Translations under genes and position numbers: made by a program
The notes under the pieces: generated by a model
What the model was told of the DNA's origin: nothing
Seen by the model: only the letters and a program-made list of their open reading frames with translations
Database searches by the model: none
Part shown: positions 16,880-39,675 of the stretch, one piece after another
Numbering within the stretch: position 1 is the first letter of the stretch
How the letters are laid out: each line of letters begins with the position of its first letter
Source: Diplonema papillatum
Taxonomy: Eukaryota > Euglenozoa > Diplonemea > Diplonemida > Diplonemidae
Assembly (NCBI GenBank): GCA_030068145.1
Contig: JAPJBO010000478.1
Coordinates: forward strand, 1-64,000
Length of the DNA: 64,000 bases
Reading direction: 5' to 3'

Positions 16880-17590
16880 CTACACATGCTGCTCTCTCAG
16901 TTGCTGACATTTAGTTATTGCATCAGCGTTCGTGCACCGGTCTCCTGGGTTGTACTTCAGCAGGCTTGCTATGAGCTCCACCAGCCCGGGCGCTATCGTG
17001 GGTGTTGCCTGTATGCTGTCCATTGGAAGACCGGCTTGATGCTGGGCCAAGAAACCAAGCAGCGTAACCCATTCCCACGGTGTGCGCCCATTGATGAGCT
17101 GCCATGCTGTGCAGCCCACGCTGTACATGTCAGCAGGAAACGAGTATCGATGGTTGTTCTGAACCTCAGGCGCCATGTAGGGAAAAGTACCCGCTTGGGT
17201 ACCCGTGGCCGTCATGGCGGCCTTCTCCTTTGAGATTCCAAGGTCGACTAGCTTTGCAACCCCTTCGGATGGAAGCATGATGTTCTGTGGCTTGATGTCA
17301 CGGTGCAAACAGCGATGTTTATGTAGAGCACCAACTCCACGAAGCAAACCAAGACAAATCGAATAATACTCGGCCCAGGACAGGAATGGTCTGCGTGATG
17401 CTGTTGTTGATGCACCCTTCTTCGCCCGTTTAAGCCGTTGCTCGAGGCTCTCTGCAAGCAGTTCAAGGAGAAGAAATGTCTGCGTGCCGTCGCAATGCCA
17501 GCCGTAAATCCGAGAAACGTGTGGATCGTCTAGGCGTCGAAGGCACCAGCTGATGCGATCCGATCGCCTTCGTCGCCCGAGGAGGGTCCG
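16880..17590 (-). CDS. Protein kinase domain (partial, 3' exon), possibly joined to upstream ankyrin exons
   Basis: The minus-strand reading from about 17,590 to the stop at 16,880 gives a Ser/Thr- or TKL-like kinase: an alpha-C-like 'LRRLDDPHVSRIYGW', the hinge region 'FLLLELLAESLEQRL', the catalytic loop HRDIKPQN, a magnesium loop DLG in place of DFG, the activation segment 'GTFPYMAPEV', the helix-F motif 'DMYSVGCTAWQLINGRTPW' and a C-terminal 'NPGDRCTNADAI'. The HRD Asp, the following Lys/Asn and the DLG Asp are present, so activity is plausible. The glycine loop and VAIK lysine are not visible in this frame; they should lie on exons in 17,592-17,962, where stops in every frame imply introns or decay. 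All recognised ankyrin exons lie upstream on the same strand, which suggests an ankyrin-repeat kinase. The joining is inferred. Confidence 0.8.
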   Translation of the reverse strand, partial: RTLLGRRRRSDRISWCLRRLDDPHVSRIYGWHCDGTQTFLLLELLAESLEQRLKRAKKGASTTASRRPFLSWAEYYSICLGLLRGVGALHKHRCLHRDIKPQNIMLPSEGVAKLVDLGISKEKAAMTATGTQAGTFPYMAPEVQNNHRYSFPADMYSVGCTAWQLINGRTPWEWVTLLGFLAQHQAGLPMDSIQATPTIAPGLVELIASLLKYNPGDRCTNADAITKCQQLREQHV

Positions 17591-17591
17591 G

Positions 17592-17962
17592 AGGACCCTT
17601 CAGCAGAGGAGGACGCGGCGGGGGACGCGGCCGAACGTCACCGCTGTCGCCGGAGTCGCCCCGGCGGTCTCCTTTGCCGGCGCCGCGCCCCTAGCGCGTT
17701 GCGTAGGAGACGACCCCGGCCACAATGGTCGTGAGGGCCTTCCGCAGCGCCGCACTCGCCGTCGTTTGGCGGCGTTCATCGCTGGTGCGCACGTAGTCTA
17801 CACCGTGCTCCACCCCGTCAAAGGATGGCGCGCTCAGCTAGCTGCGCCCAGGCGGACTGACCCAGCTGCCCCGCAACACATGGTGCCACTCGGCCCGTCG
17901 CATGTCCAGCAGGACCCGCCCTTGCACCTTCATAGTGCCGAGGTCCAACCCGTCGGATTTAC
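17592..17962 (-). other. Interval expected to hold the kinase N-lobe
   Basis: GC-rich sequence between the last ankyrin exon and the recognisable kinase frame. One minus-strand frame contains 'GTMKVQGRVLLDMRRAEWHH' and, after a TAG, 'GVDYVRTSDERRQTTASAAL', but no clear glycine-rich loop or VAIK. It may contain small exons and introns or decayed sequence, or the ankyrin and kinase parts may be separate genes. Confidence 0.3.
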
Positions 17963-18062
17963 CCCCAACTGGGGGGAGCGACGTTGGCACCAGCTGCGAT
18001 CAACTGCGTGACAACTTCTGAGTGACCGTTCCAGCTGGCAATATGCAGAGCCGTCGAACCAT
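17963..18062 (-). CDS. Ankyrin-repeat exon E1 (last of the array)
   Basis: Follows the acceptor 'caatgacacag' and encodes one ankyrin repeat, with STALHIASWN, then GHSEVVTQLIAAGANV. Its end differs from the other exons: after GANV the sequence changes to APPSWG, and the next in-frame codon is TAA (17,959-17,961). A donor 'GGGG|GTAAAT' one base before that stop could splice into the kinase region. If it is not used, the ankyrin protein ends here. The exon is 100 bp if this donor is right, against 99 bp in the other copies. Confidence 0.7.
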
Positions 18063-18383
18063 CTGTGTCATTGGGTGAGCGGCTAAAATGTACAACGACA
18101 CGAACACAAGGTGTGGGTGGTAGCAATCAGATGCAGACTGCATCACGGGCAGCCTGAAGCGGGAGGTGTTACTTTCAGATTCACGTCTCAGGGTCGAGAC
18201 GCTGGCGACAGAGAATGGATGATCTTGGGCAAACACAAATCTTCCGTGTCATATGTTGACATGTGGCATCTTCTTGTCCGGAAAGTACACGTTGTGAGCC
18301 GCTCTCCACATTGGAATTCGGTGTTTTTTGGGTTCCATCTTTGTTTGATAAGGGAACAAGGGAAAACGACATTCACCGATCTG

Positions 18384-18958
18384 CTATGTATCATCCTGCT
18401 TCTTGCATGTCAAAACGTTGTGACCCGAATCACCACATCTGGCGCAATTTCGTTTATTTGCTGCTGGCGGTGGGTCACTTGACGTGCCGCGCTTGGAGCC
18501 CTTTCGTGGTTTGTTGATTACCTCGGAGCATATTCGTTTGCAACAACCACATCGAAGGGGACGGACCTCACCATTGCTTTTCATCCTTCGCTTTTTTTCC
18601 CTGCCCCCCAGGAGCGGTATCGTAACGGGAGGAAGTATAATATTATACTTGCACTCAAGGGTTGCAAGGCACGGGCACTTGGACGGCGTAAGTCTCACGG
18701 ATGGATTCCTTCAAATGAACGGCATGGGTAAACGAGGCGGGGTCTTTTTTCATTCATCTTGCTATGATTGCGACGTTTGTAAGAATTAGTAAATTTGGTC
18801 GGCAACCTTGTAAAACGTAGTAAATATATGGGATCTTGCTTAAGAGCCACATCCATCACACTTGGGAAAACGTAGAGCTCTTTTGTGGAGCCCTCCGTTC
18901 TTCGGTGGCATGTCTCGCAGTCGACGTCGGGGACACGGGTTGCCTTCTTGTTCTTCAC
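18384..18958 (-). pseudogene. CCHC zinc-knuckle ORF pair of transposon origin, unit 1
   Basis: Two minus-strand frames overlapping by 4 bp: an 87-aa frame with 'DVDCETCHRRTEGSTKE' and a 104-aa frame ending in 'CARCGDSGHNVLTCKK', a perfect C-x2-C-x4-H-x4-C knuckle, preceded by a basic segment and a 'CGCCKRIC' cluster. Knuckles of this type occur in retroelement Gag proteins and in the C-termini of several transposases. I cannot assign the family. It follows the recombinase on the same strand inside the intron, so it probably belongs to the same dead element. Confidence 0.6.
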
Positions 18959-18997
18959 TTTCTGTACGAGAACTTCGAGTGGCTCGGTGTAAGCTTT

Positions 18998-20326
18998 TTA
19001 CGCCTCAACACACCCTGGGTCCCTTAGGACTTTCTCGTCGTAGTGGGTCACCATGTCTCCTGATGCCCAATCACCCATCTTTTGAACCTGCATGGGGTCC
19101 ATACCCGCTTTCAGAAGGGATGCAACAACCATCTATCCGGGCACTGTGGGTTAGAAAACGCGCCCTCGTCCGTCCCGAGCAGTCGGCGTCGTTGAACGGC
19201 TGCAGGATGCCCCGCTTCCCCGCAGTCCCGCGGAGGGCATCCCTAAACGAGGCATGGACGGGAAACGGGCACAAGAGGCGTTTCCCCTTGGCCATGAGTT
19301 TCAGAAGGGAAAAGACCTCGACAGGGCAGTACAGAATAGACTCTGGCACGCTGTCGGGTCCATTCGGCAGGAGCAAAGGGGGCAACAGATTGATGCTTTC
19401 AAAGGTGAGGTATCTACTGCACGTCCCTGTTGCCTTGAACATAGTCGATCCAACCCTCACGCCGCCCTCGCCGACGCGGACATCCTCCGTCAGGATCGAC
19501 TGCATGGAGAGTGAAGTGCTCACCCAGCAGCTGCACATCCGCGCCGTACCCGCCAACGGTCCGCACGAAGCCGAAGATCTGACGGGACTGTGCGGCGCCT
19601 CGGGGCTCGTCGCTCTCAGGGTCAGGCGCCGCTCTCTTCAACGCTCTGATCATCCTGCGGATGTCGTCAGCAGGATTCTCGAGAACCCAACCATCCGCCG
19701 TGTCCTCGGCTAAGATGGCGTTGATGATGTTGTGGGGCGCCTTGTACGCCTCATCTTTCATGCCTACAGGTATCCGCCGAAGTTCTCAAGCCTCCGGACC
19801 GTCGTCGGGTATGGATGCACGCCCTCGCTCGCACGCCACTCCCTGTACGTGGCCGTGTTCGAGTTGTTGACCCTCCTTGTGCCTGCAGTCGTGTACAGGC
19901 TCCTCATGCGAGGGCGGGCTGCATCAGGGGGACGTCCTCGAGGGCACGCTTTAGCGCCCGCCGCTGAGACGTTGACCTCTTCTCAACCGGTGTTACGGGA
20001 CTGACCAGCGCAGGAGAGCTCTGATCACGCGCTCTCACCAAGTCCTGTACTCTGCGGTACAGCTCAGGACTGGGCACACGCACCGGAAGTGCCCACATCG
20101 GAAGCCTCTCCAGTGTCAGAAGGGTCGTATCGTCCGGGAGGCCTCGGAGGCTTCTACTCACGTCCCTCCACTCTTCCTCATTGAACAAGGTCCGCAGAAA
20201 CGCGACCCACCCAATCATCTTTTCTGGGGCAGGGAGGGCGGGAAGAAAAGAGAAAGAGAGACATAAATAGAGGTAGCGAGGGTTTGGAGGAGGACGCTGG
20301 CGTGCGTCGGGGCCAGTGAGAAGCAC
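18998..20326 (-). pseudogene. Degenerate tyrosine recombinase (DIRS/Crypton-like), unit 1
   Basis: Minus strand. A 140-aa frame (20,326-19,904) is followed in another frame by an N-terminal core-binding (SAM-like) region ('NNSNTATYREWRASEGVHPY', then 'YKAPHNIINAILAEDTADGW' and 'IRRMIRALKRA'). A catalytic region comes next: 'ILTEDVRVGEGGVRVGSTMF', the HxxR box as 'THSARIDG', and after one more frame change 'AGMDPMQVQKMGDWASGD' followed by the box carrying the nucleophile, 'MVTHYDEK', stopping at 18,998. So the His, Arg, Trp and Tyr of a lambda-integrase-family enzyme can be read, but at least three frame changes make it a pseudogene. DIRS-type retroelements and Cryptons use this enzyme; RNase H of DIRS type nearby favours DIRS. 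Confidence 0.8.
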
Positions 20327-20486
20327 CGGCTACATTCAAGCCTTCGAGTTTGCTGAGCCGGACGTCCAGTAGCTGTACCCCCTTCTGCAATACCTATGCC
20401 TCTTCTGTGATGTCATCTGCCTCACACGTGGGGGCCTCATAGCACCCACATGAACAAAAAAACATTCTTCGCATCGTAAAACATAC

Positions 20487-20585
20487 ACTTGTTCGGCACG
20501 TCGACCTTGGCACCAGCTGCGATCAATTCCTTGACAACTTCTGAGTGACCGAACCTGCTGGCTTCAGACAGAGCCGTCGAACCAT
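20487..20585 (-). CDS. Ankyrin-repeat exon E2
   Basis: Exactly 99 bp between 'caatgacacag' and 'gtatgt'. It encodes one repeat: STALSEASRF, GHSEVVKELIAAGAKV, DVPNK. Both junctions split a codon after its first base, so this phase-1 exon can be added or lost without a frameshift; joining AACAAGT to AT of the next exon gives Asn-Lys-Tyr-Gly. It differs from E3 at 9 of 99 bases, clustered in the codons for the hairpin and helix-1 positions, which in ankyrin proteins usually contact ligands. Confidence 0.88.
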
Positions 20586-20906
20586 CTGTGTCATTGGGTG
20601 AGCGGCTAAAATGTACAACGACACGAACACAATGTGTGGGTGGTAGCAATCAGATGCAGACTGCATCACGGGCAGCCTGAAGCGGGAGGTGTTACTTTCA
20701 GGTTCACGTCTCAAGGTCGAGACGCTGGCGACAGAGAATGGATGATCTTGGGCAAACACAAATCTTCCGTGTCATATGTTGACATGTGGCATCTTCTTGT
20801 CCCGAAAGTACACGTTGTGAGTCGCTCTCCACATTGGAATTCGGTGTTTTTTGGGTTCCATCTTTGTTTGATAAGGGAACAAGGGAAAACGACATTCACC
20901 GATCTG

Positions 20907-21296
20907 CTATGTATCATCCTGCTTCTTGCATGTCAAAACGTTGTGACCCGAATCACCACATCTGGCGCACTTTCGTTTATTTGCTGCTGGCGCTGGGTCA
21001 CTTGACGTGCCGCGCTTGGAGCCCTTTCGTGGTTTGTTGATTACCTCGGAGCATATTCGTTTGCAACACGAAGGCGGGGTCCTTTTTTCATTCATCTTGC
21101 TATGATTGCGACGTTTGTAAGAATTAGTAAATGTGGTCGGCAACCTTGTAAAACGTAGTAAATATATGGGATCTTGCTGAAGAGCCACATCCATCACACT
21201 TGGGAAAACGTAGAGCTCTTTTGTGGAGCCCTCCGTTCTTCGGTGGCATGTCTCGCAGTCGACGTCGGGGACACGGGTTGCCTTCTTGTTCTTCAC
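20907..21296 (-). pseudogene. Zinc-knuckle ORF, unit 2 (fused by deletion)
   Basis: The 185-bp deletion joins the two frames seen in unit 1 into one 129-aa frame that keeps both 'CETCHRR' and the knuckle 'CARCGDSGHNVLTC'. The deletion ends do not match GT-AG boundaries in either direction, so it is not a removed intron. Confidence 0.6.
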
Positions 21297-21335
21297 TATC
21301 TGTACGAGAACTTCGAGTGGCTCGGTGTAAGCTTT

Positions 21336-22664
21336 TTACGCCTCAACACACCCTGGGTCCCTTAGGACTTTCTCGTCGTAGTGGGTCACCATGTCTCCTG
21401 ATGCCCAATCACCCATCTTTTGAACCTGCATGGGGTCCATACCCGCTTTCAGAAGGGATGCAACAACCATCTATCCGGGCACTGTGGGTTAGAAAACGCG
21501 CCCTCGTCCGTCCCGAGCAGTCGGCGTCGTTGAACGGCTGCAGGATGCCCCGCTTCCCCGCAGTCCCGCGGAGGGCATCCCTAAACGAGGCATGGACGGG
21601 AAACCGGCACAAGAGGCGTTTCCCCTTGGCCATGAGTTTCAGAAGGGAAAAGACCTCGACAGGGCAGTACAGAATAGACTCTGGCACGCTGTCGGGTCCA
21701 TTCGGCAGGAGCAAAGGGGGCAACAGATTGATGCTTTCAAAGGTGAGGTATCTACTGCACGTCCCTGTTGCCTTGAACATAGTCGATCCAACCCTCACGC
21801 CGCCCTCGCCGACGCGGACATCCTCCGTCAGGATCGACTGCATGGAGAGTGAAGTGCTCACCCAGCAGCTGCACATCCGCGCCGTACCCGCCAACGGTCC
21901 GCACGAAGCCGAAGATCTGACGGGACTGTGCGGCGCCTCGGGGCTCGTCGCTCTCAGGGTCAGGCGCCGCTCTCTTCAACGCTCTGATCATCCTGCGGAT
22001 GTCGTCAGCAGGATTCTCGAGAACCCAACCATCCGCCGTGTCCTCGGCTAAGATGGCGTTGATGATGTTGTGGGGCGCCTTGTACGCCTCATCTTTCATG
22101 CCTACAGGTATCCGCCGAAGTTCTCAAGCCTCCGGACCGTCGTCGGGTATGGATGCACGCCCTCGCTCGCACGCCACTCCCTGTACGTGGCCGTGTTCGA
22201 GTTGTTGACCCTCCTTGTGCCTGCAGTCGTGTACAGGCTCCTCATGCGAGGGCGGGCTGCATCAGGGGGACGTCCTCGAGGGCACGCTTTAGCGCCCGCC
22301 GCTGAGACGTTGACCTCTTCTCAACCGGTGTTACGGGACTGACCAGCGCAGGAGAGCTCTGATCACGCGCTCTCACCAAGTCCTGTACTCTGCGGTACAG
22401 CTCAGGACTGGGCACACGCACCGGAAGTGCCCACATCGGAAGCCTCTCCAGTGTCAGAAGGGTCGTATCGTCCGGGAGGCCTCGGAGGCTTCTACTCACG
22501 TCCCTCCACTCTTCCTCATTGAACAAGGTCCGCAGAAACGCGACCCACCCAATCATCTTTTCTGGGGCAGGGAGGGCGGGAAGAAAAGAGAAAGAGAGAC
22601 ATAAATAGAGGTAGCGAGGGTTTGGAGGAGGACGCTGGCGTGCGTCGGGGCCAGTGAGAAGCAC
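21336..22664 (-). pseudogene. Degenerate tyrosine recombinase, unit 2
   Basis: Same frame breaks as unit 1, showing that the gene was already dead before the units multiplied. One Gly/Arg difference (NRHKRRF reading on the opposite strand) is shared with unit 5. Confidence 0.78.
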
Positions 22665-22824
22665 CGGCTACATTCAAGCCTTCGAGTTTGCTGAGCCGGA
22701 CGTCCAGTAGCTGTACCCCCTTCTGCAATACCTATGCCTCTTCTGTGATGTCATCTGCCTCACACGTGGGGGCCTCATAGCACCCACATGAACAAAAAAA
22801 CATTCTTCGCATCGTAAAACATAC

Positions 22825-22923
22825 ACTTGTTCTGCACGTCGACCTTGGCACCAGCTGCGATCAATTCCTTGACAACTTCTGAGTGACCGTTCCCGCTGGC
22901 AATATGCAGAGCCGTCGAACCAT
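22825..22923 (-). CDS. Ankyrin-repeat exon E3
   Basis: 99 bp, phase 1-1. It encodes STALHIASGN, GHSEVVKELIAAGAKV, DVQNK, the best match of the six to the ankyrin consensus (TALH, GH, GA). It shares the 'catattgcc' block (HIA) with E1 but ends like E2 and E6. Confidence 0.88.
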
Positions 22924-23244
22924 CTGTGTCATTGGGTGAGCGGCTAAAATGTACAACGACACGAACACAATGTGTGGGTGGTAGCAATCAGATGCAGACT
23001 GCATCACGGGCAGCCTGAAGCGGGAGGTGTTACTTTCAGATTCACGTCTCAGGGTCGAGACGCTGGCGACAGAGAATGGATGATCTTGGGCAAACACAAA
23101 TCTTCCGTGTCATATGTTGACATGTGGCATCTTCTTGTCCGGAAAGTACACGTTGTGAGCCGCTCTCCACATTGGAATTCGGTGTTTTTTGGGTTCCATC
23201 TTTGTTTGATAAGGGAACAAGGGAAAACGACATTCACCGATCTG

Positions 23245-23819
23245 CTATGTATCATCCTGCTTCTTGCATGTCAAAACGTTGTGACCCGAATCACCACATC
23301 TGGCGCACTTTCGTTTCTTTGCTGCTGGCGGTGGGTCACTTGACGTGCCGCGCTTGGAGCCCTTTCGTGGTTTGTTGATTACCTCGGAGCATATTCGTTT
23401 GCAACAACCACATCGAAGGGGACGGACCTCACCATTGCTTTTCATCCTTCGCTTTTTTTCCCTGCCCCCCAGGAGCGGTATCGTAACGGGAGGAAGTATA
23501 ATATTATACTTGCACTCAAGGGTTGCAAGGCACGGGCACTTGGACGGCGTAAGTCTCACGGATGGATTCCTTCAAATGAACGGCATGGGTAAACGAGGCG
23601 GGGTCTTTTTTCATTCATCTTGCTATGATTGCGACGTTTGTAAGAATTAGTAAATTTGGTCGGCAACCTTGTAAAACGTAGTAAATATATGGGATCTTGC
23701 TTAAGAGCCACATCCATCACACTTGGGAAAACGTAGAGCTCTTTTGTGGAGCCCTCCGTTCTTCGGTGGCATGTCTCGCAGTCGACGTCGGGGACACGGG
23801 TTGCCTTCTTGTTCTTCAC
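23245..23819 (-). pseudogene. Zinc-knuckle ORF pair, unit 3
   Basis: Same two overlapping frames as unit 1, with Lys replacing Asn before the knuckle ('KKRKCARCG'). Confidence 0.58.
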
Positions 23820-23858
23820 TTTCTGTACGAGAACTTCGAGTGGCTCGGTGTAAGCTTT

Positions 23859-24253
23859 TTACGCCTCAACACACCCTGGGTCCCTTGGACTTTCTCGTCG
23901 TAGTGGGTCACCATGTCTCCTGATGCCCAATCACCCATCTTTTGAACCTGCATGGGGTCCATACCCGCTTTCAGAAGGGATGCAACAACCATCTATCCGG
24001 GCACTGTGGGTTAGAAAACGCGCCCTCGTCCGTACCGAGCAGTCGGCGTTGTTGAACGGCTGCAGGATACCCCGCTTCCCCGCAGTCCCGCGGAGGGCAT
24101 CCCTAAACGAGGCATGGACGAGAAACGGGCACAACAGGCGTTTCCCCTTGGCCATAAGTTTCAGAAGGGAAAAGACCTCGACAGGGCAGTACAGAATAGA
24201 CTCTGGCACGCTGTCGGGTCCATTCGGCAGGAGCAAAGGGGGCAACAGATTGA
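23859..24253 (-). pseudogene. Tyrosine recombinase C-terminal part, unit 3 (split by LINE)
   Basis: Contains the HxxR-to-Tyr end of the recombinase. The LINE inserted at 24,254 separates it from a middle part at 29,549-29,824. The N-terminal part is absent because an RT-RNase H segment replaces it. Confidence 0.72.
24245..24253 (+). repeat. Target-site duplication, LINE-1W 3' side
   Basis: 'acagattga', identical to 29,549-29,557. Present once in the uninterrupted units. Confidence 0.9.
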
Positions 24254-24336
24254 GAGAGAGAGAGAGAGAGACGAGTTAGAGTGCAGGGACCATCTCTCCG
24301 AGGAGTATCCGGTCGCCCCACTACTATCCCGTACTA

Positions 24337-24936
24337 CTACGGCGGGCGCAAGTCGTTGCGCCGTGGGCGCGGAGCGAGCCGTGGCCCTGTCAAAGATGAT
24401 TGTTGCACCGATGGTGGCGCAGCCGGGGGCGTTCTGACTGGCGGACGAGACCGCCTGGCAGGCGTGTGTTGACACGTTGTTTCGCGGGCTCTCCTCCTTT
24501 TGGCAATAGCCCGCCCTATGGCGGCGGCTAGCATCTTGACAGAGAATCTCAACTCCCACTGAACATAGGGTACGTCGTGCGGATATTCAGGCACGGCATC
24601 GTTCCAGCTGTTACGGGCGCAAATTGTTTCCAGCTTGCCCAACATCCACTCGGTCTTCCGTCCAACCGCAAAGCGTGGGCGGTGGGTACAACCCGGCATA
24701 GCCGGCGCACCAAAACAGCGGAGGGAACAGACCCCCTGCCGCCACTTCCCAAGGAAGGAGGCGACTCCTGAGTCGGCGCAGCACAGGTCGTTGATAGCTC
24801 GCATAAGGTACCCAATTTGCAGCCCCTTCTCGGCGAAGGTTCTCCCTGGGAGCTTCGAACGCGTAAATGCCTCAAAATCAAGCGCGAGTTCCACGCCTGC
24901 GGTTGTCAACGGGTCCCTCTGTGCCCAGGGGGACAC
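24337..24936 (-). pseudogene. LINE-1W ORF2 C-terminal region, out of frame
   Basis: Continues the ORF2 protein in another frame: 'RDPLTTAGVELALDFEAF' follows where the main frame runs into 'NNRRRG'-like sequence and a stop at 24,878. It contains Cys residues ('DLCCADSG', 'CSLRCFGAPAMPGC') but no clear RNase H motif. It ends in a basic, Pro-rich tail. A one-base indel near 24,900-24,930 is the simplest explanation, so this copy is probably inactive unless the frame change is programmed. Confidence 0.65.
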
Positions 24937-27574
24937 CCAAAACCTTCACTATTTTGCTCGATCGAATTATTTTGCGACCGATCACGAGGCGAGGAGGCTC
25001 TGGGGACGTCGAGAAGGAGACCGACTTGTCCTCGTTGAGGGCAAAGCCTGTCAGGCTGTCGAACACCTCTGTGGTTCGAATTCCCTCTTGGAGTAGCCTC
25101 GCAAGTTGCGACAGCAGGTACAGATCGTCGGCGAACGACTTCGGACTCACCCGAGCTCGGCTGACCAAGGCCTTCGAGAGAACAGAGAGGAGCGCGTTGA
25201 TCAGGACCACTGATATCGGGCAGCCCTGGAGAATTCCGTTGGTGACAGTGAACATCTCGCCGACTCCCAAGGGGTACCGGAAGCGACGCCTCAGGTGCTT
25301 GTATATGTGGCGTAAGGGTGCCAGCACACGCTCGTGAAGCCCAAGCGCCTCCATCAAGTCGAGCACCAGGGCCTGAGGGACGCGGTCAAAGCACTTGGCA
25401 AAGTCGAGTGCGACCCCGCACAGGGGTGTACCGTTTGTCAGTGATTCCTCTATCGATAGGGCGATATCCATGACCACGTCGTCGCAGGAGTGGCCGTGCC
25501 GGAAACCATGTTGAGACCCGTGAATCCATAGCTCTTGCCAGAGCATGACATCCTGTAGGCGCACGCTAGCCCAGAGTCGATATACCACGCTCGAGACAGT
25601 AATCGGACGCAGCTTCAGTGGATCACTCCCTTCTCCTTTAGGAATTAAGGTGACCATTGCGTCCAGGACTCCGTCGGGCCAGAAGCCGGTTTCCTCTACC
25701 TCGTTGAGCACCACGACAAAGCTTTCCAGGATTGCATTCGGCAGAGCGGCGATTTCACGCATGCGCCAGCCGTCTACACCGCAAGACGTCTGTACGCTCT
25801 TCTTTTTCGCCACCTGACGAAGCCGCTCGGCCGTGATCGGATTTAGATTGCATGGGTGTTGCGTGATAAAGTCTTTGTACTCCTGGAAGAAAGGGGCAAA
25901 CTCGGGTTCCCTCTTCTCGGCGTACATGCGGAGCACTGGATCCCAACTCCTCCTCACCAACGCGTCAACTTCTGCCAAGTTCGCAGTGAGCCGCCCATCG
26001 GCCCCAGTTACAAACGATAACCCCGATGGCGCGTCTTTCTTCACCCAAGCGAACGATTCCTTCCCCAGGGGGTCGCGAAGCTCCCGCTGACTCCTCGCGC
26101 TCTTCAGGTATCTCGAAGTTAGCGTGCTATGCGCCAGGTCACGACACAGTCCTGAGACGGTAAACGCGAGGCCTCTTCCGATTTTCGCTGACGGCGGCTC
26201 GGGTGGCAGAGCACACTTCCCATCCGTGCGCAGCAACACGAAACTTCGAAAGGAGCGTATTTTCGTCCACTGTCCCTCAAGCTGGAAGGGCAAAGGGCCA
26301 GGGGAGACGATTGTGCTTTCCCATTTGGCTCTGGCGGCTGCGTACTCCCGTATGCGCCCAAGGAGACACCTGGCTCTCTTCAAAGAAGCTGTATCGGCTC
26401 CCGCACCTTCAGGGGACGGCCTCGCCGATACTCGCTGAGAGTTCAATTCCCGACGTACGCCACGGCCACAGTACCCGGTTAGGTTGCCTTCGATTCCGGA
26501 TTTGAGGATGAGGTACTCTTCCGCAGCTCGCGAAGTCCGTTGCCAGAGGAAGTTCACCCGGGGGCTACCTTCGAGCCCGGGGGGGCAAGGGTCCCCGAGG
26601 CGGTACTTCTCAGAGACGTTCCGGAGGGCATTCGGGTCGTCCAGGCCGCTCAGCCCGGTGCTTGGAATTGCCCGGGGGTACCGGAGTACCGGGTTCAGTT
26701 GTTGGAATACTGCAAGATTAAAGGTGGCTCGGACCGCCTTGTGCGTAGGGAGGCCGGCTTCGAAAGTCTCCACGCGACCGAGAGCGGCAGAAGCGACTTC
26801 GTTGGTGAGAAGAAGGTCGATGCGTGACGGCTGACCGTGGTAACATGTAAACTCTGCAGGACTTCCCAGGGCTTCAGCTTGCAGCTCGGCAGAGTCCGAC
26901 CAGCCGTTGCGCAAGGCGAAACGGAGCGCCGGGGAACCGAGGGGGGTCGTGTTGAAATCGCCGGCGGCGACAAGGGGCACAGCACCCAAGCGCTGGCGCA
27001 ATCCCCACAGGGATCCCTCGATCAACCTTTCCCGCTCGGGTTTTTCGGAAATGCCACAGTGACCGTACAATGACACCACGTGTACGGCTCCTTTACCTAC
27101 ACCTGTCGCGACACGTACATGCAAGAAGCGGGCCGATTCGTAGGCACGTTGCTCGGCTGCGTCAAAAGGCTCGACGATACATGCAGGCAAGCCTTTCTTG
27201 ACGAAAATCGCGACTCCTGCACTACCTCCTGTAACCTGGGATGGGACGCTGTTGCCGCACTTCCGCCCAACACAGCAGCTGCCGAAGAAGGGTTGCCATA
27301 CATCAAGGGCGCCGGCTTGTTTCAGGGCCATCCGGATACTTCTCTGCCCGGCACTCGTCAACTTCGTTTCTTGAACACAGATGATGTCCGCCGCTATGCA
27401 GATGAGGAGGTACAGGTTCTTCATCAAGGACGTGACATTTATAGTCACAATTCGAATTGGTGGAGGGCCAGGGTTGGGTTCGATACCTTGAGTCACGAGA
27501 AGCGCGTACGCTACGAGGGCCAGATAGAACTCTCTCGTCGGCTGGGGGGACAAATCGTTGGCGTGGATCACCAT
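24878..27574 (-). CDS. LINE-1W ORF2: AP endonuclease and reverse transcriptase, with 2A-like N-terminus
   Basis: 898 aa. Residues 14-37 are hydrophobic and then read 'VTQGIEPNPGP', a 2A-like ribosome-skipping motif lacking the usual Asp. An apurinic-type endonuclease follows (about 38-285: catalytic Glu in VQET at 69, GDFN at 205-208, SRIDLLL at 250, His 278). The reverse transcriptase (about 600-850) has LIPKGEGSDP, 'VALDFAKCFDRVP', 'NGILQGCPISVVLIN' and the catalytic FADD at 814-817. The proteins nick target DNA and copy the element RNA. The start codon overlaps the ORF1 stop (ATGGTGA), suggesting coupled termination-reinitiation. The C-terminus is frameshifted. Confidence 0.93.
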   Translation of the reverse strand: MVIHANDLSPQPTREFYLALVAYALLVTQGIEPNPGPPPIRIVTINVTSLMKNLYLLICIAADIICVQETKLTSAGQRSIRMALKQAGALDVWQPFFGSCCVGRKCGNSVPSQVTGGSAGVAIFVKKGLPACIVEPFDAAEQRAYESARFLHVRVATGVGKGAVHVVSLYGHCGISEKPERERLIEGSLWGLRQRLGAVPLVAAGDFNTTPLGSPALRFALRNGWSDSAELQAEALGSPAEFTCYHGQPSRIDLLLTNEVASAALGRVETFEAGLPTHKAVRATFNLAVFQQLNPVLRYPRAIPSTGLSGLDDPNALRNVSEKYRLGDPCPPGLEGSPRVNFLWQRTSRAAEEYLILKSGIEGNLTGYCGRGVRRELNSQRVSARPSPEGAGADTASLKRARCLLGRIREYAAARAKWESTIVSPGPLPFQLEGQWTKIRSFRSFVLLRTDGKCALPPEPPSAKIGRGLAFTVSGLCRDLAHSTLTSRYLKSARSQRELRDPLGKESFAWVKKDAPSGLSFVTGADGRLTANLAEVDALVRRSWDPVLRMYAEKREPEFAPFFQEYKDFITQHPCNLNPITAERLRQVAKKKSVQTSCGVDGWRMREIAALPNAILESFVVVLNEVEETGFWPDGVLDAMVTLIPKGEGSDPLKLRPITVSSVVYRLWASVRLQDVMLWQELWIHGSQHGFRHGHSCDDVVMDIALSIEESLTNGTPLCGVALDFAKCFDRVPQALVLDLMEALGLHERVLAPLRHIYKHLRRRFRYPLGVGEMFTVTNGILQGCPISVVLINALLSVLSKALVSRARVSPKSFADDLYLLSQLARLLQEGIRTTEVFDSLTGFALNEDKSVSFSTSPEPPRLVIGRKIIRSSKIVKVLGVPLGTEGPVDNRRRGTRA

Positions 27575-29370: not shown

Positions 29371-29548
29371 ACTCGAATGAGAGCGGGGATGGACCCCCCT
29401 TCACGCTTCTCTTAGCTGATACTTATACTCGTTCTCTCTTTTCTGATCTGATATCCCACCACTTCTTTTTTCTTCACCCGAGGTGTTTCCGGGCAGAACC
29501 CGGAGCCGCTTTCCTTCAAGGGTAGCCACGGCAAGCCACCAATAAAGT

Positions 29549-29557
29549 ACAGATTGA
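29549..29557 (+). repeat. Target-site duplication, LINE-1W 5' side
   Basis: Second copy of 'acagattga'; the common intron sequence continues from here ('tgctttcaaagg'). Confidence 0.9.
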
Positions 29558-29824
29558 TGCTTTCAAAGGTGAGGTATCTACTGCACGTCCCTGTTGCCTT
29601 GAACATAGTCGATCCAACCCTCACGCCGCCCTCGCCGACGCGGACATCCTCCGTCAGGATCGACTGCATGGAGAGTGAAGTGCTCACCCAGCAGCTGCAC
29701 ATCCGCGCCGTACCCGCCAACGGTCCGCACGAAGCCGAAGATCTGACGGGACTGTGCACCGCCTCGGGGCTCGTCGCTCTCAGGGTCAGGCGCCGCTCTC
29801 TTCAACGCTCTGATCATCCTGCGG

Positions 29825-30698
29825 GCAGCTCGTTCGAAGGTAACGTGGAAAGACGCAGACACGAGAACCGCCAGCACCCGGTACGAGTTTATCGGGGTGG
29901 ACTGGGACCACCAGGGCAGGAAGGTCGGCATTTCGGCAAGGTTGTCGAAAGAAATTGGCACGGGATCTGGAAGAGGTGCGCAAGGGTGCGATGTCCGCGT
30001 CCGGTCTGGAGACGCTGGGTGGTCGGTTGCTGCACGCGTCGGCCATCGTGGGTGTTTATGTCGGCGAGTTCTACTTCGCCTTGAAGTTTCTTCGCCGGTT
30101 GACGAATGCGCTGAACCGGGGCGAGAAGGCCGTCGACCAGACGGTTCGCCTCTCGGGTAGTGTGCAGCGGCTACTCGACGGCTGGGTTCGCGCGGTGTTG
30201 GAGAAGCGAAGAATGCCAGTGGCGGCCCGGGTGCCGTCGCTCACCGTGTTTGTGGACGCAAGTCTCGAGGGATGGGGCGGCGTGCTGGTTGACGTCGCCA
30301 CCAACGCGATCGAAGTTCTGGGCTCGCGGTGGTCCAGGAAAGAGAAGGGCCTTCACATCAACGAGCTGGAGGCCCTTGCATTTGAACTTTGTGTGTCGGC
30401 AGTGCCTGACAAGTACGCGGGCGGCACGGTCACCGTCGTGGTTGACAACACGACGGTGCAGGGTGTTGCGCGGAAAGGGGCATGTCTGCGATCGCAGACT
30501 TTGAACGATGCCGTGGTGAACGGGCTCACACGCCTGCGCCACATGAACATTTCCTTATCTGTGCGCTGGGTAAGCGCCGGGAATCCTGCTGACCTTCCGT
30601 CACGGGTTCCGTTATCGGCAATTTCCGATAAGAATATGGCCGACATGGCACTTGCAGTTAGGCAGTTCCTGACTGGCGATATGGGTTTGGTGGTGTGA
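29825..30698 (+). pseudogene. RT thumb-RNase H fragment of DIRS type, copy A
   Basis: Plus strand, opposite to the recombinase. It starts at the break point after 'atcatcctgcgg' with the end of a reverse transcriptase ('STRYEFIGVDWDHQGRKVG'). After a frame change near 29,948 it continues in a 247-248 aa frame (29,955-30,698) with an RNase H domain: 'FVDASLEGWGGVL' (Asp 101), 'INELEALAFEL' (Glu 137/139), 'VVVDNTTVQG' (Asp 164) and 'GNPADLPSR' (Asp about 213). This motif set is typical of RT-RH proteins of tyrosine-recombinase retroelements. The frameshift and the missing RT core make it a fragment. Copy A lacks the 3 bases coding Lys in 'VRWVKSAGN'. Confidence 0.78.
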
Positions 30699-30892
30699 CC
30701 TCCTGGGCTAGCCTGTTTCTCTCACCATTCAGCGGCTATCTCGGGGGGTTACCCCATCGTAAGTGCAATTCGTTTAGTTTTCTTCCTTTCGCGTTCATTT
30801 CATTGAACTGATCATTGTCACCGAGTGAAGCGCACAAAGCATTCGGCATAGTTGTTTGGGCTGTTCCGCATAGTTCTGCATAGTTTTCGGGG

Positions 30893-31340
30893 ACCAGAAT
30901 TGGACCAAAATTGGACCAAAATTGGACCAAAATTGGACCAAAATTGGACCAAAATTGGACCAAAATTGGACCAAAATTGGACCAAAATTGGACCAAAATT
31001 GGACCAAAATTGGACCAAAATTGGACCAAAATTGGACCAAAATTGGACCAAAATTGGACCAAAATTGGACCAAAATTGGACCAAAATTGGACCAAAATTG
31101 GACCAAAATTGGACCAAAATTGGACCAAAATTGGACCAAAATTGGACCAAAATTGGACCAAAATTGGACCAAAATTGGACCAAAATTGGACCAAAATTGG
31201 ACCAAAATTGGACCAAAATTGGACCAAAATTGGACCAAAATTGGACCAAAATTGGACCAAAATTGGACCAAAATTGGACCAAAATTGGACCAAAATTGGA
31301 CCAAAATTGGACACCAAAATTGGACCAAAATTGGACCAAA
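30893..31340 (+). repeat. 11-bp minisatellite (TTGGACCAAAA), copy A, ~41 units
   Basis: Near-perfect tandem units with one 2-base irregularity at about 31,312. The period is not a multiple of three and no unit makes a stop in any frame, so all six frames stay open for hundreds of bases (GPKLDQNWTKI and similar 11-residue repeats). These frames should not be taken as genes. It lies about 195 bp after the RNase H stop, as in copy B. Confidence 0.97.
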
Positions 31341-31716
31341 CGACGTGTTGGGAACGATGCTCTCGGTAGGGCAAGGGCGAAAACTCTTAAATCGCCCGCC
31401 GGGCCCGACATTTCCCGGTACCGATGGAAGAGAGGGAACGATTCGTCGCCGCTGCGGCAACGACCAAGGCGCTGTATGGAACGGGTTCCGCACCAGCAGG
31501 TATGCGAAGATCGTGCGACGACACTTCGAGGGGATTGTCCACTGCCGGCAACACGACGATTGCTGATAGAAGGAGGGCTCACCGGGTACCAGCAACCGCT
31601 GGTACGAGCAGTCATCACCAACGCTGTGTTGACAAAGCGGCTTCTGCAAGTACTGCGACGCGGGGGGAACCGGATGACGAGCACCACATGTTGTGATCGT
31701 GTTTGCCGGCCGACTT
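31341..31716. other. Unique tail after the minisatellite
   Basis: About 375 bp not shared with the other units or with copy B, joining the minisatellite to the common intron. No recognised domain. It may be further retroelement debris. Confidence 0.4.
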
Positions 31717-31865
31717 TCAAGCCTTCGAGTTTGCTGAGCCGGACGTCCAGTAGCTGTACCCCCTCTTCTGCAATACCTATGCCTCTGTGATGTCATCTGC
31801 CTCGCACGTGGGGGCCTCATAGCACCCACATGAACAAAAAACATTCTTCGCATCGTAAAACATAC

Positions 31866-31964
31866 CGTAGTTCTGCACTTCGACCTTGGCACCAGCTGCG
31901 ATCAATTCCTTGACAACTTCTGAGCGACCGAACCTGCTGGCTTCAGACAGAGCCGTCGAACCAT
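31866..31964 (-). CDS. Ankyrin-repeat exon E4
   Basis: 99 bp, phase 1-1. It encodes STALSEASRF, GRSEVVKELIAAGAKV, EVQNY. Its end reads AACTACG before 'gtatgt', whereas other exons read AACAAGT or GACAAGT. This change next to an unchanged intron fixes the donor position and makes the next codon GAT (Asp) instead of TAT (Tyr). It shares the 'tctgaagccagcaggttc' block with E2. Confidence 0.88.
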
Positions 31965-32285
31965 CTGTGTCATTGGGTGAGCGGCTAAAATGTACAACGA
32001 CACGAACACAATGTGTGGGTGGTAGCAATCAGATGCAGACTGCATCACGGGCAGCCTGAAGCGGTAGGTGTTACTTTCAGATTCACGTCTCAGGGTCGAG
32101 ACGCTGGCGACAGAGAATGGATGATCTTGGGCAAACACAAATCTTCCGTGTCATATGTTGACATGTGGCATCTTCTTGTCCGGAAAGTACACGTTGTGAG
32201 CCGCTCTCCACATTGGAATTCGGTGTTTTTTGGGTTCCATCTTTGTTTGATAAGGGAACAAGGGAAAACGACATTCACCGATCTG

Positions 32286-32860
32286 CTATGTATCATCCTG
32301 CTTCTTGCATGTCAAAACGTTGTGACCCGAATCACCACATCTGGCGCACTTTCGTTTCTTTGCTGCTGGCGGTGGGTCACTTGACGTGCCGCGCTTGGAG
32401 CCCTTTCGTGGTTTGTTGATTACCTCGGAGCATATTCGTTTGCAACAACCACATCGAAGGGGACGGACCTCACCATTGCTTTTCATCCTTCGCTTTTTTT
32501 CCCTGCCCCCCAGGAGCGGTATCGTAACGGGAGGAAGTATAATATTATACTTGCACTCAAGGGTTGCAAGGCACGGGCACTTGGACGGCGTAAGTCTCAC
32601 GGATGGATTCCTTCAAATGAACGGCATGGGTAAACGAGGCGGGGTCTTTTTTCATTCATCTTGCTATGATTGCGACGTTTGTAAGAATTAGTAAATTTGG
32701 TCGGCAACCTTGTAAAACGTAGTAAATATATGGGATCTTGCTTAAGAGCCACATCCATCACACTTGGGAAAACGTAGAGCTCTTTTGTGGAGCCCTCCGT
32801 TCTTCGGTGGCATGTCTCGCAGTCGACGTCGGGGACACGGGTTGCCTTCTTGTTCTTCAC
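32286..32860 (-). pseudogene. Zinc-knuckle ORF pair, unit 4
   Basis: Translation identical to units 3, 5 and 6. Confidence 0.58.
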
Positions 32861-32899
32861 TTTCTGTACGAGAACTTCGAGTGGCTCGGTGTAAGCTTT

Positions 32900-34228
32900 T
32901 TACGCCTCAACACACCCTGGGTCCCTTAGGACTTTCTCGTCGTAGTGGGTCACCATGTCTCCTGATGCCCAATCACCCATCTTTTGAACCTGCATGGGGT
33001 CCATACCCGCTTTCAGAAGGGATGCAACAACCATCTATCCGGGCACTGTGGGTTAGAAAACGCGCCCTCGTCCGTCCCGAGCAGTCGGCGTCGTTGAACG
33101 GCTGCAGGATGCCCCGCTTCCCCGCAGTCCCGCGGAGGGCATCCCTAAACGAGGCATGGACGGGAAACGGGCACAAGAGGCGTTTCCCCTTGGCCATGAG
33201 TTTCAGAAGGGAAAAGACCTCGACAGGGCAGTACAGAATAGACTCTGGCACGCTGTCGGGTCCATTCGGCAGGAGCAAAGGGGGCAACAGATTGATGCTT
33301 TCAAAGGTGAGGTATCTACTGCACGTCCCTGTTGCCTTGAACATAGTCGATCCAACCCTCACGCCGCCCTCGCCGACGCGGACATCCTCCGTCAGGATCG
33401 ACTGCATGGAGAGTGAAGTGCTCACCCAGCAGCTGCACATCCGCGCCGTACCCGCCAACGGTCCGCACGAAGCCGAAGATCTGACGGGACTGTGCGGCGC
33501 CTCGGGGCTCGTCGCTCTCAGGGTCAGGCGCCGCTCTCTTCAACGCTCTGATCATCCTGCGGATGTCGTCAGCAGGATTCTCGAGAACCCAACCATCCGC
33601 CGTGTCCTCGGCTAAGATGGCGTTGATGATGTTGTGGGGCGCCTTGTACGCCTCATCTTTCATGCCTACAGGTATCCGCCGAAGTTCTCAAGCCTCCGGA
33701 CCGTCGTCGGGTATGGATGCACGCCCTCGCTCGCACGCCACTCCCTGTACGTGGCCGTGTTCGAGTTGTTGACCCTCCTTGTGCCTGCAGTCGTGTACAG
33801 GCTCCTCATGCGAGGGCGGGCTGCATCAGGGGGACGTCCTCGAGGGCACGCTTTAGCGCCCGCCGCTGAGACGTTGACCTCTTCTCAACCGGTGTTACGG
33901 GACTGACCAGCGCAGGAGAGCTCTGATCACGCGCTCTCACCAAGTCCTGTACTCTGCGGTACAGCTCAGGACTGGGCACACGCACCGGAAGTGCCCACAT
34001 CGGAAGCCTCTCCAGTGTCAGAAGGGTCGTATCGTCCGGGAGGCCTCGGAGGCTTCTACTCACGTCCCTCCACTCTTCCTCATTGAACAAGGTCCGCAGA
34101 AACGCGACCCACCCAATCATCTTTTCTGGGGCAGGGAGGGCGGGAAGAAAAGAGAAAGAGAGACATAAATAGAGGTAGCGAGGGTTTGGAGGAGGACGCT
34201 GGCGTGCGTCGGGGCCAGTGAGAAGCAC
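32900..34228 (-). pseudogene. Degenerate tyrosine recombinase, unit 4
   Basis: Translation and frame breaks as in unit 1; no private change noticed. Confidence 0.78.
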
Positions 34229-34388
34229 CGGCTACATTCAAGCCTTCGAGTTTGCTGAGCCGGACGTCCAGTAGCTGTACCCCCTTCTGCAATACCTATG
34301 CCTCTTCTGTCATGTCATTTGCCTCACACGTGGGGGCCTCATAGCACCCACATGAACAAAAAAACATTCTTCGCATCGTAAAACATAC

Positions 34389-34487
34389 ACTTGTCCTGCA
34401 CGTCGACCTTGGCACCAGCTGCGATCAATTCCTTGACAACCTTCAAGTGACCGTTCTCGCTGGACTCATGCAGAGCCGTCCAACCAT
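34389..34487 (-). CDS. Ankyrin-repeat exon E5
   Basis: 99 bp, phase 1-1, and the most divergent exon: GWTALHESSEN, GHLKVVKELIAAGAKV, DVQDK. It differs from E6 at about 15 of 99 bases, nearly all amino-acid-changing, while the flanking introns are almost identical. Confidence 0.88.
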
Positions 34488-34808
34488 CTGTGTCATTGGG
34501 TGAGTGGCTAAAATGTACAACGACACGAACACAATGTGTGGGTGGTAGCAATCAGATGCAGACTGCATCACAGGCAGCCTGAAGCGGGAGGTGTTACTTT
34601 CAGGTTCACGTCTCAGGGTCGAGACGCTGGCGACAGAGAATGGATGATCTTGGGCAAACACAAATCTTCCGTGTCATATGTTGACATGTGGCATCTTCTT
34701 GTCCGGAAAGTACACGTTGTGAGCCGCTCTCCACATTGGAATTCGGTGTTTTTTGGGTTCCATCTTTGTTTGATAAGGGAACAAGGGAAAACGACATTCA
34801 CCGATCTG

Positions 34809-35383
34809 CTATGTATCATCCTGCTTCTTGCATGTCAAAACGTTGTGACCCGAATCACCACATCTGGCGCACTTTCGTTTCTTTGCTGCTGGCGGTGGGT
34901 CACTTGACGTGCCGCGCTTGGAGCCCTTTCGTGGTTTGTTGATTACCTCGGAGCATATTCGTTTGCAACAACCACATCGAAGGGGACGGACCTCACCATT
35001 GCTTTTCATCCTTCGCTTTTTTTCCCTGCCCCCCAGGAGCGGTATCGTAACGGGAGGAAGTATAATATTATACTTGCACTCAAGGGTTGCAAGGCACGGG
35101 CACTTGGACGGCGTAAGTCTCACGGATGGATTCCTTCAAATGAACGGCATGGGTAAACGAGGCGGGGTCTTTTTTCATTCATCTTGCTATGATTGCGACG
35201 TTTGTAAGAATTAGTAAATTTGGTCGGCAACCTTGTAAAACGTAGTAAATATATGGGATCTTGCTTAAGAGCCACATCCATCACACTTGGGAAAACGTAG
35301 AGCTCTTTTGTGGAGCCCTCCGTTCTTCGGTGGCATGTCTCGCAGTCGACGTCGGGGACACGGGTTGCCTTCTTGTTCTTCAC
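34809..35383 (-). pseudogene. Zinc-knuckle ORF pair, unit 5
   Basis: Identical translation to unit 4. Confidence 0.58.
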
Positions 35384-35422
35384 TTTCTGTACGAGAACTT
35401 CGAGTGGCTCGGTGTAAGCTTT

Positions 35423-36748
35423 TTACGCCTCAACACACCCTGGGTCCCTTAGGACTTTCTCGTCGTAGTGGGTCACCATGTCTCCTGATGCCCAATCACC
35501 CATCTTTTGAACCTGCATGGGGTCCATACCCGCTTTCAGAAGGGATGCAACAACCATCTATCCGGGCACTGTGGGTTAGAAAACGCGCCCTCGTCCGTCC
35601 CGAGCAGTCGGCGTCGTTGAACGGCTGCAGGATGCCCCGCTTCCCCGCAGTCCCGCGGAGGGCATCCCTAAACGAGGCATGGACGGGAAACCGGCACAAG
35701 AGGCGTTTCCCCTTGGCCATGAGTTTCAGAAGGGAAAAGACCTCGACAGGGCAGTACAGAATAGACTCTGGCACGCTGTCGGGTCCATTCGGCAGGAGCA
35801 AAGGGGGCAACAGATTGATGCTTTCAAAGGTGAGGTATCTACTGCACGTCCCTGTTGCCTTGAACATAGTCGATCCAACCCTCACGCCGCCCTCGCCGAC
35901 GCGGACATCCTCCGTCAGGATCGACTGCATGGAGAGTGAAGTGCTCACCCAGCAGCTGCACATCCGCGCCGTACCCGCCAACGGTCCGCACGAAGCCGAA
36001 GATCTGACGGGACTGTGCGGCGCCTCGGGGCTCGTCGCTCTCAGGGTCAGGCGCCGCTCTCTTCAACGCTCTGATCATCCTGCGGATGTCGTCAGCAGGA
36101 TTCTCGAGAACCCAACCATCCGCCGTGTCCTCGGCTAAGATGGCGTTGATGATGTTGTGGGGCGCCTTGTACGCCTCATCTTTCATGCCTACAGGTATCC
36201 GCCGAAGTTCTCAAGCCTCCGGACCGTCGTCGGGTATGGATGCACGCCCTCGCTCGCACGCCACTCCCTGTACGTGGCCGTGTTCGAGTTGTTGACCCTC
36301 CTTGTGCCTGTCGTGTACAGGCTCCTCATGCGAGGGCGGGCTGCATCAGGGGGACGTCCTCGAGGGCACGCTTTAGCGCCCGCCGCTGAGACGTTGACCT
36401 CTTCTCAACCGGTGTTACGGGACTGACCAGCGCAGGAGAGCTCTGATCACGCGCTCTCACCAAGTCCTGTACTCTGCGGTACAGCTCAGGACTGGGCACA
36501 CGCACCGGAAGTGCCCACATCGGAAGCCTCTCCAGTGTCAGAAGGGTCGTATCGTCCGGGAGGCCTCGGAGGCTTCTACTCACGTCCCTCCACTCTTCCT
36601 CATTGAACAAGGTCCGCAGAAACGCGACCCACCCAATCATCTTTTCTGGGGCAGGGAGGGCGGGAAGAAAAGAGAAAGAGAGACATAAATAGAGGTAGCG
36701 AGGGTTTGGAGGAGGACGCTGGCGTGCGTCGGGGCCAGTGAGAAGCAC
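35423..36748 (-). pseudogene. Degenerate tyrosine recombinase, unit 5
   Basis: As unit 4, except for the 3-base deletion and the substitution it shares with unit 2, a sign of exchange between distant units. Confidence 0.78.
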
Positions 36749-36908
36749 CGGCTACATTCAAGCCTTCGAGTTTGCTGAGCCGGACGTCCAGTAGCTGTAC
36801 CTCCTTCTGCAATACCTATGCCTCTTCTGTCATGTCATTTGCCTCACACGTGGGGGCCTCATAGCACCCACATGAACAAAAAAACATTCTTCGCATCGTA
36901 AAACATAC

Positions 36909-37007
36909 ACTTGTTCGGCACGTCGACCTTGGCACCAGCTGCGATCAATACCTTGACAACTTCTGAGTGACCGTTCCGGCTGGCTGCAGACAGAGCCGTC
37001 GAACCAT
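36909..37007 (-). CDS. Ankyrin-repeat exon E6 (most upstream recognised)
   Basis: 99 bp, phase 1-1: STALSAASRN, GHSEVVKVLIAAGAKV, DVPNK. No further ankyrin exon was recognised upstream (37.0-45 kb), so the gene's 5' end, promoter and start codon are not located. More exons may lie outside the array or be too diverged to see. Confidence 0.87.
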
Positions 37008-39482: not shown

Positions 39483-39675
39483 CCTCCTGGGCTAGCCTGT
39501 TTCTCTCACCATTCAGCGGCTATCTCGGGGGGTTACCCCATCGTAAGTGCAATTCGTTTAGTTTTCTTCCTTTCGCGTTCATTTCATTGAACTGATCATT
39601 GTCACCGAGTGAAGCGCACAAAGCATTCCGCATAGTTGTTTGGGCTGTTCCGCATAGTTCTGCATAGTTTTCGGG

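Follow-up and report, generated by a model that had tools for sequence, protein, structure and literature searches.

The systems closest in design to the locus reported here come from fungi, brown algae and protein engineering. In Podospora, the WD40 repeats of the HNWD genes show concerted evolution with a few selected codons on the binding face, and the WD repeats of the het genes determine allorecognition, as described in the sections of the paper available to us (PMC1805685). Likewise, the available sections on fungal NLR proteins describe concerted ANK and TPR repeats, with hypervariable ANK codons on the beta-hairpin/loop and the inner helices (PMC4986451). Brown-algal ROCO-LRR genes, which are candidate immune receptors, carry one LRR per exon with constant length and phase as well as positively selected sites on the ligand face, and the shuffled-exon receptors of these algae also include NB-TPR genes, according to the sections at hand (PMC11378527). 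Finally, designed ankyrin repeat proteins (DARPins) are built of 33-residue repeats with randomised surface positions, as stated in the part of the source available (PMC8683736). Here we describe an array of ankyrin exons in Diplonema papillatum, a unicellular marine flagellate, located in a stretch of 64,000 nucleotides (positions 1 to 64,000 of contig JAPJBO010000478.1, assembly GCA_030068145.1). This whole stretch is referred to as the window, and coordinates given without a contig label are positions in it.

With the fungal NLR repeats, as far as the available sections describe them, the Diplonema arrays share near-identical repeats within and between loci and a few hypervariable codons on the binding surface. 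Near-identity across loci amounts here to a divergence of 0.26% in introns and 0.33% in conserved codons over 45 unit pairs from four contigs, and the hypervariable codons show a nonsynonymous excess, with their assignment to the surface following ankyrin numbering. The fungal repeats, however, are part of NOD-domain genes and lie, as we understand it, in contiguous coding sequence, whereas Diplonema has one exon per repeat, a 2.5-kb unit, near-identical introns and about 500 exons in an unrelated protist. The brown-algal genes resemble the arrays in having one repeat per exon with constant length and phase, but their LRR exons are described as 72 bp, phase 2 and linked to ROC-COR, whereas the ANK exons reported here are 99 bp, phase 1 and linked to a kinase at most. 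The repeat is ANK rather than LRR or TPR, and the linked domain seen is a kinase rather than ROC-COR or NB-ARC. An earlier note on this DNA had singled out the construction from whole exon-intron units; this construction is present, although one repeat per exon also occurs in brown algae (PMC11378527). Codon-restricted change against near-identical introns is not described in the sections of that paper available to us. We do not claim membership in the fungal NLR or the brown-algal ROCO family, because no NOD or ROC-COR domain was seen in the scanned open reading frames (ORFs); NACHT or NB-ARC domains were found neither among the window ORFs sent to Pfam (10 + 10, one of them twice) nor in the kinase ORF of C345, the 5' end of the gene not having been located. 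On this comparison, the arrays combine fungal and brown-algal features and add near-identical introns as an internal clock. With neutral sequence for reference in the same kilobase, the system measures how fast selection or focused mutation can move codons.

Diplonemids are an abundant ocean lineage next to trypanosomes. Among the papers listed for Diplonema or diplonemids with ankyrin, exons, gene families or diversifying selection (for one listing the 20 best of 144,755), none deals with such arrays, judged by titles and the beginnings of abstracts, and the available part of a diplonemid proteome paper uses D. papillatum ankyrin repeats only within the negative set (PMC12699882). Going by these listings, we know of no earlier candidate for such a recognition repertoire in a diplonemid, and the array would be the first. 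Since D. papillatum is described in the sections at hand as suggested to be haploid, grown in axenic culture and transformable (PMC10161547), expression, turnover and mutation are directly testable.

Single-repeat ankyrin exons in tandem units

Positions 17959-37007 hold six ankyrin exons on the minus strand, in the 5' to 3' order E6 (36909..37007), E5 (34389..34487), E4 (31866..31964), E3 (22825..22923), E2 (20487..20585) and E1 (17959..18062). E2 to E6 measure 99 bp each and are bordered by the acceptor CAG and the donor GTATGT. The hand-spliced product matched the Pfam family Ank (PF00023) with E = 4e-53 in six stretches, the repeats being 33 residues long. The first two bases of every exon complete a split codon; the introns are therefore phase 1, and the reading frame is kept however many exons are joined. 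In its last part E1 differs from E2-E6, and it terminates the array with NVAPPSWG and a stop at 17959-17961. The idea that E1 is a broken exon was rejected, because ends of this terminal type recur at 58 genomic places.

The earlier note had described six single-repeat exons in tandem units of about 2,523 bp. Five of them are indeed exactly 99 bp and in the same phase, whereas E1 is of the terminal type, and only three of the five exon-to-exon spacings fit that unit length (2523, 2520 and 2523 bp). The E3-E2 spacing is 2,338 bp and the E4-E3 spacing 9,041 bp, the latter because of a large insertion. All introns lie on the minus strand: E6-E5 at 34488..36908 (2421 bp), E5-E4 at 31965..34388 (2424 bp), E4-E3 at 22924..31865 (8942 bp, broken by a retroelement and a repeated block), E3-E2 at 20586..22824 (2239 bp, shortened relative to the other introns by two deletions, one of 178 bp and one of 7 bp) and E2-E1 at 18063..20486 (2424 bp).

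The array is one of many. A pattern spanning intron end and exon start gave 519 exact matches in the genome and none when reversed as a control, and a variant of the exon-start pattern one base shorter gave 17. A 42-base pattern over the end of the terminal exon matched the 58 places mentioned above with at most 3 mismatches, E1 of the window having 3; dividing the 519 exon starts by the 58 array ends yields about 9 exons per array. Places were examined as the first 100 of these 519, of 452 matches to a pattern fixing codons 4-6, 9, 10 and 13, and of 374 to a further one, and another search found 539 places with at most 3 mismatches, of which the 100 considered are those without mismatch.

Exon lengths were taken from a sample of 47, of which 36 measured 99 bp, five 102 bp, one 90 bp, and five were frameshifted, so the length was divisible by three in 42 of the 47. 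One repeat per exon with constant length and phase is accordingly a property of the sampled exons (36/47 at 99 bp). The search pattern behind this sample fixes codon 2 and part of codons 4-6, whose constancy is thus partly a matter of choice; one duplicate place was removed, and L048-L057, selected as the top protein matches, are biased towards the consensus. The 102-bp exons (L064, L066, L075, L077 and C392:5347-5448) carry an extra codon at the exon end (EGK, EGN, EEE, DGK), so loop length varies too. Upstream of the array, the sequence at 40504-43600 is common to the window and the contigs C1331, C1426 and C392, in pieces that are mostly 96-99.6% and in some cases 85-96% identical and partly inverted; this shared sequence may hold a promoter or first exon. 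An Rfam search of the window gave 0 matches.

Divergence confined to particular codons

Base-by-base alignment reproduced the exon differences that the earlier note had counted by eye, 9/99 between E2 and E3 and 15/99 between E5 and E6, with pairs among E2-E6 ranging from 5 to 19. It also bore out the near-identity claimed for the introns of units 4, 5 and 6, as introns E6-E5 and E5-E4 differ by 6 mismatches in 2,421 bases plus one 3-bp indel. The four unbroken window introns show 6-16 mismatches per pair over about 2,240 to 2,424 bases. The comparison was extended to 13 full units from the window, C1331, C1426 and C392, of which the ten with 99-bp exons were used; the exon comparison omits the other three, whose exons measure 98, 100 and 102 bp. 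Over the 45 pairs of these ten units, the variable codons diverge by 21.8%, far above the 0.26% of the introns. Intron divergence is therefore not as high as exon divergence, and neutral duplication, which the earlier note had argued against, is rejected. Segregating columns make up 23/39 in variable codons, 1/60 in conserved codons and 27/2,424 in introns; conserved codons are indistinguishable from introns (p = 0.50), whereas variable codons stand apart (Fisher ~1e-31). As the note had it, exon changes are mostly amino-acid changing and fall on surface positions, by ankyrin numbering those of the binding surface, but they are confined to particular codons and not spread over the exon.

The contrast is equally visible in single comparisons. 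One unit pair shows 0/2,401 intron differences yet 6 exon differences, and a second pair 2/2,401 and 13, respectively. Across the ten units 24/99 exon sites segregate, compared to at most 5 in any 99-bp intron window, and the four window units alone give 18 segregating exon sites against 5 for intron windows. Mapped on the intron-based tree, the variable codons require 48 steps at 39 sites and the introns 30 steps at 2,424 sites, a 99-fold difference per site that is an upper bound if units recombine. Where both 120-bp flanks are identical, as in 72 exon pairs from a wider sample, 14.2% of the variable-codon bases and 0.42% of the conserved-codon bases differ; flank divergence over all pairs of that sample mixes intron subfamilies, and only these 72 pairs were used. 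As the variable codons were defined after inspection of the data, we also took a codon set from ankyrin binding positions (3, 8, 11, 12, 32, 33 and the last base), which is not identical to the DARPin set and in which 15/19 columns segregate compared to 9/80 of the other exon columns.

The most variable exon residues are 3, 7, 8, 11, 12, 32 and 33 together with the last base, followed by 14-16, 20 and 31. We take exon residues 3, 7, 8, 11, 12, 31, 32, 33 and the split codon to correspond to ankyrin positions 5, 9, 10, 13, 14, 33, 1, 2 and 3, which presumably include all six positions randomised in DARPin libraries. By this numbering the variable codons are the ankyrin binding positions. The arrays resemble DARPins in their constant 33-residue framework with variable surface positions; DARPins differ in being a man-made library, and in Diplonema positions 1, 9 and 10, by the same numbering, vary as well. 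The last exon base was G in 20, T in 9, A in 4 and C in 3 of 36 exons, and together with the AT of the next exon it codes for D, Y, N or H. Through this varying split codon, each exon junction would therefore determine a further binding residue (Y, D, N or H).

Across 100 exons, codon 11 alone takes 22 forms, one of them a stop and the others encoding 17 amino acids. In the four variable codons considered, one stop was found among 400, compared to about 19 expected from independent bases at the composition of the distinct codons, although these 400 codons are not independent, many exons being copies; a weaker test on distinct codons gave 1/54 observed against 3.1 expected. At C963:58203-58236 a TAG stop occupies variable codon 11, the exon start being normal in other respects. 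Few stops and lengths that are multiples of three in 42/47 exons lead us to regard the exons as protein coding, at present or until recently. Four-gamete combinations occur between codons, which indicates recombination or repeated mutation.

The age of the variation was judged from the flanks. Exon differences increase as the flanks diverge (Mantel r 0.65, p 0.004; 17 of 23 units, the six others being left out for a median flank divergence of at least 3%), and mean flank divergence increases from 0.10% for equal exons to 0.50% for more than 12 exon differences. The 100-bp flank bins adjoining the exon diverge by 0.24% upstream and 0 downstream, and the remaining bins by 0-0.8%, except for 1.9% at 300-400 bp downstream. 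This scaling and the low adjoining bins argue against old exon variants swapped between homogenised introns. The earlier note had proposed either strong diversifying selection or a diversification or swapping of exons between homogenised introns; diversification stands, but its unit is the codon, and swapping of whole exons is disfavoured. Two explanations remain: intense selection acting on new mutations, or a mutational process directed at the variable codons.

Interpretation and the linked kinase genes

We favour, with a probability of about 0.6, the reading that the window contains one array of a large, recently amplified ankyrin-repeat gene family that makes diverse binding proteins, shaped by selection at binding codons. 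Each internal repeat would be one 99-bp phase-1 exon in a unit of about 2.5 kb, so that units can be gained, lost and exchanged without a break of the frame. Unequal exchange and segmental duplication would keep the units alike across contigs, where near-identity is observed, and the codons assigned to the binding surface appear to change about 80 to 100 times faster than the remaining unit. Selection for new amino acids and against stops would drive the variable codons, and the family would probably supply a repertoire of proteins that bind and recognise non-self or partners. From their sequence, the arrays look like a natural library of binding surfaces whose expression is predicted.

Members with a C-terminal kinase could signal. 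Downstream of the terminal exon in the window lies a 5'-truncated protein kinase (16883..17599, minus strand; Pkinase profile positions 52-258 of 263), for which an intact gene was ruled out, as it has no N-lobe. At least 121 C-lobe matches at E<=1e-20 occur in the genome (150 of 668 candidates scored). In 13/13 examined kinase loci the end of a terminal ankyrin exon is located just upstream, at 311-396 bp by pattern in 12 of them; in L046 it is present with one base different, and in C1331a and L046 the 5' part of the terminal exon is missing. Contigs with kinase matches number 91 and those with ankyrin matches at least 97, with an overlap of at least 50 compared to 3 expected. Ten copies of the 717-bp kinase DNA, chosen as best protein matches, fall into 4 distinct forms, and the 20 pairs listed differ by 0-2 bases, from which it follows that the kinase coding sequence is not diversified. 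An N-lobe search gave 82 matches, of which four were 92-100% identical over all 99 query residues (C21, C345, C880 and C1217) and 16 were 57-60% identical with open frames of 300-357 amino acids, the other 62 being partial. Intact kinase genes thus exist as well: C345 encodes a 466-amino-acid ORF with both kinase lobes downstream of an ankyrin exon of the array type, whose acceptor and donor are those of the window exons. Database relatives of the kinase protein showed 23-51% identity among the matches listed, long ankyrin-kinase proteins being outside the length range searched. Because a truncated kinase lies at the end of the examined arrays, these would encode ankyrin-only proteins or serve as an exon reserve.

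Several observations weigh against the favoured reading of an expressed, selected gene family. Splicing and expression of the array exons are predictions from genomic DNA; no coding first exon was recognised in the conserved sequence 5' of the arrays, and the start was not found. The best 120 of 2,458 matches to database proteins were all at or below 59% identity (lengths about 182-579 amino acids), so there is no annotated family member among them. The five frameshifted exons in the sample of 47 measured 98 bp (four) and 100 bp (one), one exon among 100 bears a stop, and the kinase beside the window array is without its N-lobe. The pooled ratio of nonsynonymous to synonymous differences per site (pN/pS) of E2-E6 is only 2.0, because synonymous differences also gather in the variable codons. 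The assembly was built from PacBio and Illumina reads, and intron divergence could be underestimated if short reads corrected the repeats, while misjoins could shuffle units. Such a correction, however, would lower exon and intron differences alike and does not explain the contrast between them.

An improbable alternative is that a mutator acts on the binding-surface codons and selection merely filters its products, so that the arrays would follow, in the nucleus, the logic of diversity-generating retroelements or somatic hypermutation. Among 23 distinct exons, pairs that agree in amino acid differ in codon in 152/1,562 cases (9.7%) at variable codons, a set that here also includes codons 14-16 and 20, compared to 40/4,950 (0.81%) at conserved codons. 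The pooled pS within the window exons is 6.4%, whereas the introns differ by 0.25-0.7%. This excess of same-amino-acid codons and the high exon pS lean towards aimed mutation but are no proof of it, as synonymous differences can also come through selected intermediate codons, and 88 of the 152 mismatched pairs stem from codon 12 (52) and codon 15 (36) only. The six exon differences between units with identical introns fit a mutator as well, as does the uniformity of the intron directly behind the variable exon end: a search for the intron start GTATGTTTTAC returned 20 exons in four contigs, and the 19 bases behind it were identical in 20/20. On the other hand, the shortage of stops shows filtering, and the reverse transcriptase ORF inside the array is part of a dispersed element. 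The adenine-specific change of diversity-generating retroelements is not seen either, since the variable bases include C, T and G, and no template repeat was searched for. That a haploid protist should diversify a nuclear ankyrin library of about 500 exons by mutation aimed at binding-site codons, leaving neighbouring silent sites and 2.4-kb introns untouched, is an unlikely prospect; the sister group of kinetoplastids would then possess a DARPin-like library of natural origin, encoded in the germline.

It is equally unlikely, in our estimate, that the arrays are an unexpressed archive donating ankyrin codons or exons to a few intact ankyrin-kinase genes, for which the variant surface glycoprotein archives of the related kinetoplastids are the analogue. 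The scarcity of complete kinases is consistent with such an archive, as most copies are without an N-lobe (only 4 of 82 N-lobe matches reach 92-100% at full length), and so is the lack of a close annotated protein among the best 120 of 2,458 matches. A further point in its favour concerns an ORF of 283 amino acids with a TTG start that runs antisense in intron E5-E4 (32764..33615, plus strand) and recurs in intron E6-E5 as a stop-to-stop frame of 289 amino acids (35269-36138, plus strand); Pfam matched neither this frame of the neighbouring unit nor any of five ORFs from the intron unit. In the sections at hand, the D. papillatum genome paper describes a dispersed repeat of nearly 20 kb with about eight 2.5-kb tandem units, each with a 283-amino-acid ORF that is apparently not transcribed (PMC10161547). 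As the intronic ORF is exactly 283 amino acids long, we regard the two as one repeat. The main text of that paper nowhere mentions ankyrin, and the passage on the 2.5-kb repeat names no exons. Being antisense and intronic, however, this ORF is uninformative on the ankyrin exons, and its silence is no test of them. Frequent donation would moreover predict unstable recipients, but the exons of the C345 and C880 gene copies look stable, as 3/4 exons, paired by order, carry identical four variable codons.

Least probable, and in our view doubtful at best, are old exon variants held by selection while gene conversion homogenised the introns and splicing or codon constraints froze the silent exon sites: the C345 exon does keep framework silent bases (19/32 codons identical to E3, including all of 17-22 and 24-26) within DNA just 88-90% identical to the window units, but exon differences scale with flank divergence, the adjoining flank bins are not raised, and the conserved codons between the variable ones are as uniform as the introns.

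Insertions and neighbouring sequence

The E4-E3 intron is interrupted by an insertion at 24254..29548 (minus strand) with an ORF of the non-long-terminal-repeat (non-LTR) type encoding endonuclease and reverse transcriptase (24878-27649). Counting the window copy, the genome holds at least 40 copies of its 2.5-kb stretch 25000-27500 with about 100% identity, and because of these near-identical copies the retroelement looks recently active. The same intron contains a block with an 11-bp minisatellite (29825..31705), of which 29825-31340 duplicates 38606-40122, sequence located 5' of the array. The minisatellite itself occupies 30748-31340 and 39520-40320, and a weak RNase H-like match adjoins it (38625-39479).

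Elsewhere in the window, a 1571-amino-acid ORF at 51525-56240 (minus strand) with matches to an OTU-like protease, endonuclease/exonuclease and reverse transcriptase is a putative non-LTR type element with an OTU domain. Self-comparison also revealed tandem repeats at 182-2763, spaced by a step of 193 bp and 91-99% identical. Ordinary neighbours of the array are the genes for a Bax inhibitor-like protein at 45505-46398 and a USP7-like deubiquitinase with a MATH domain at 58669-63895 (ORF 58672-62586), both encoded on the minus strand.

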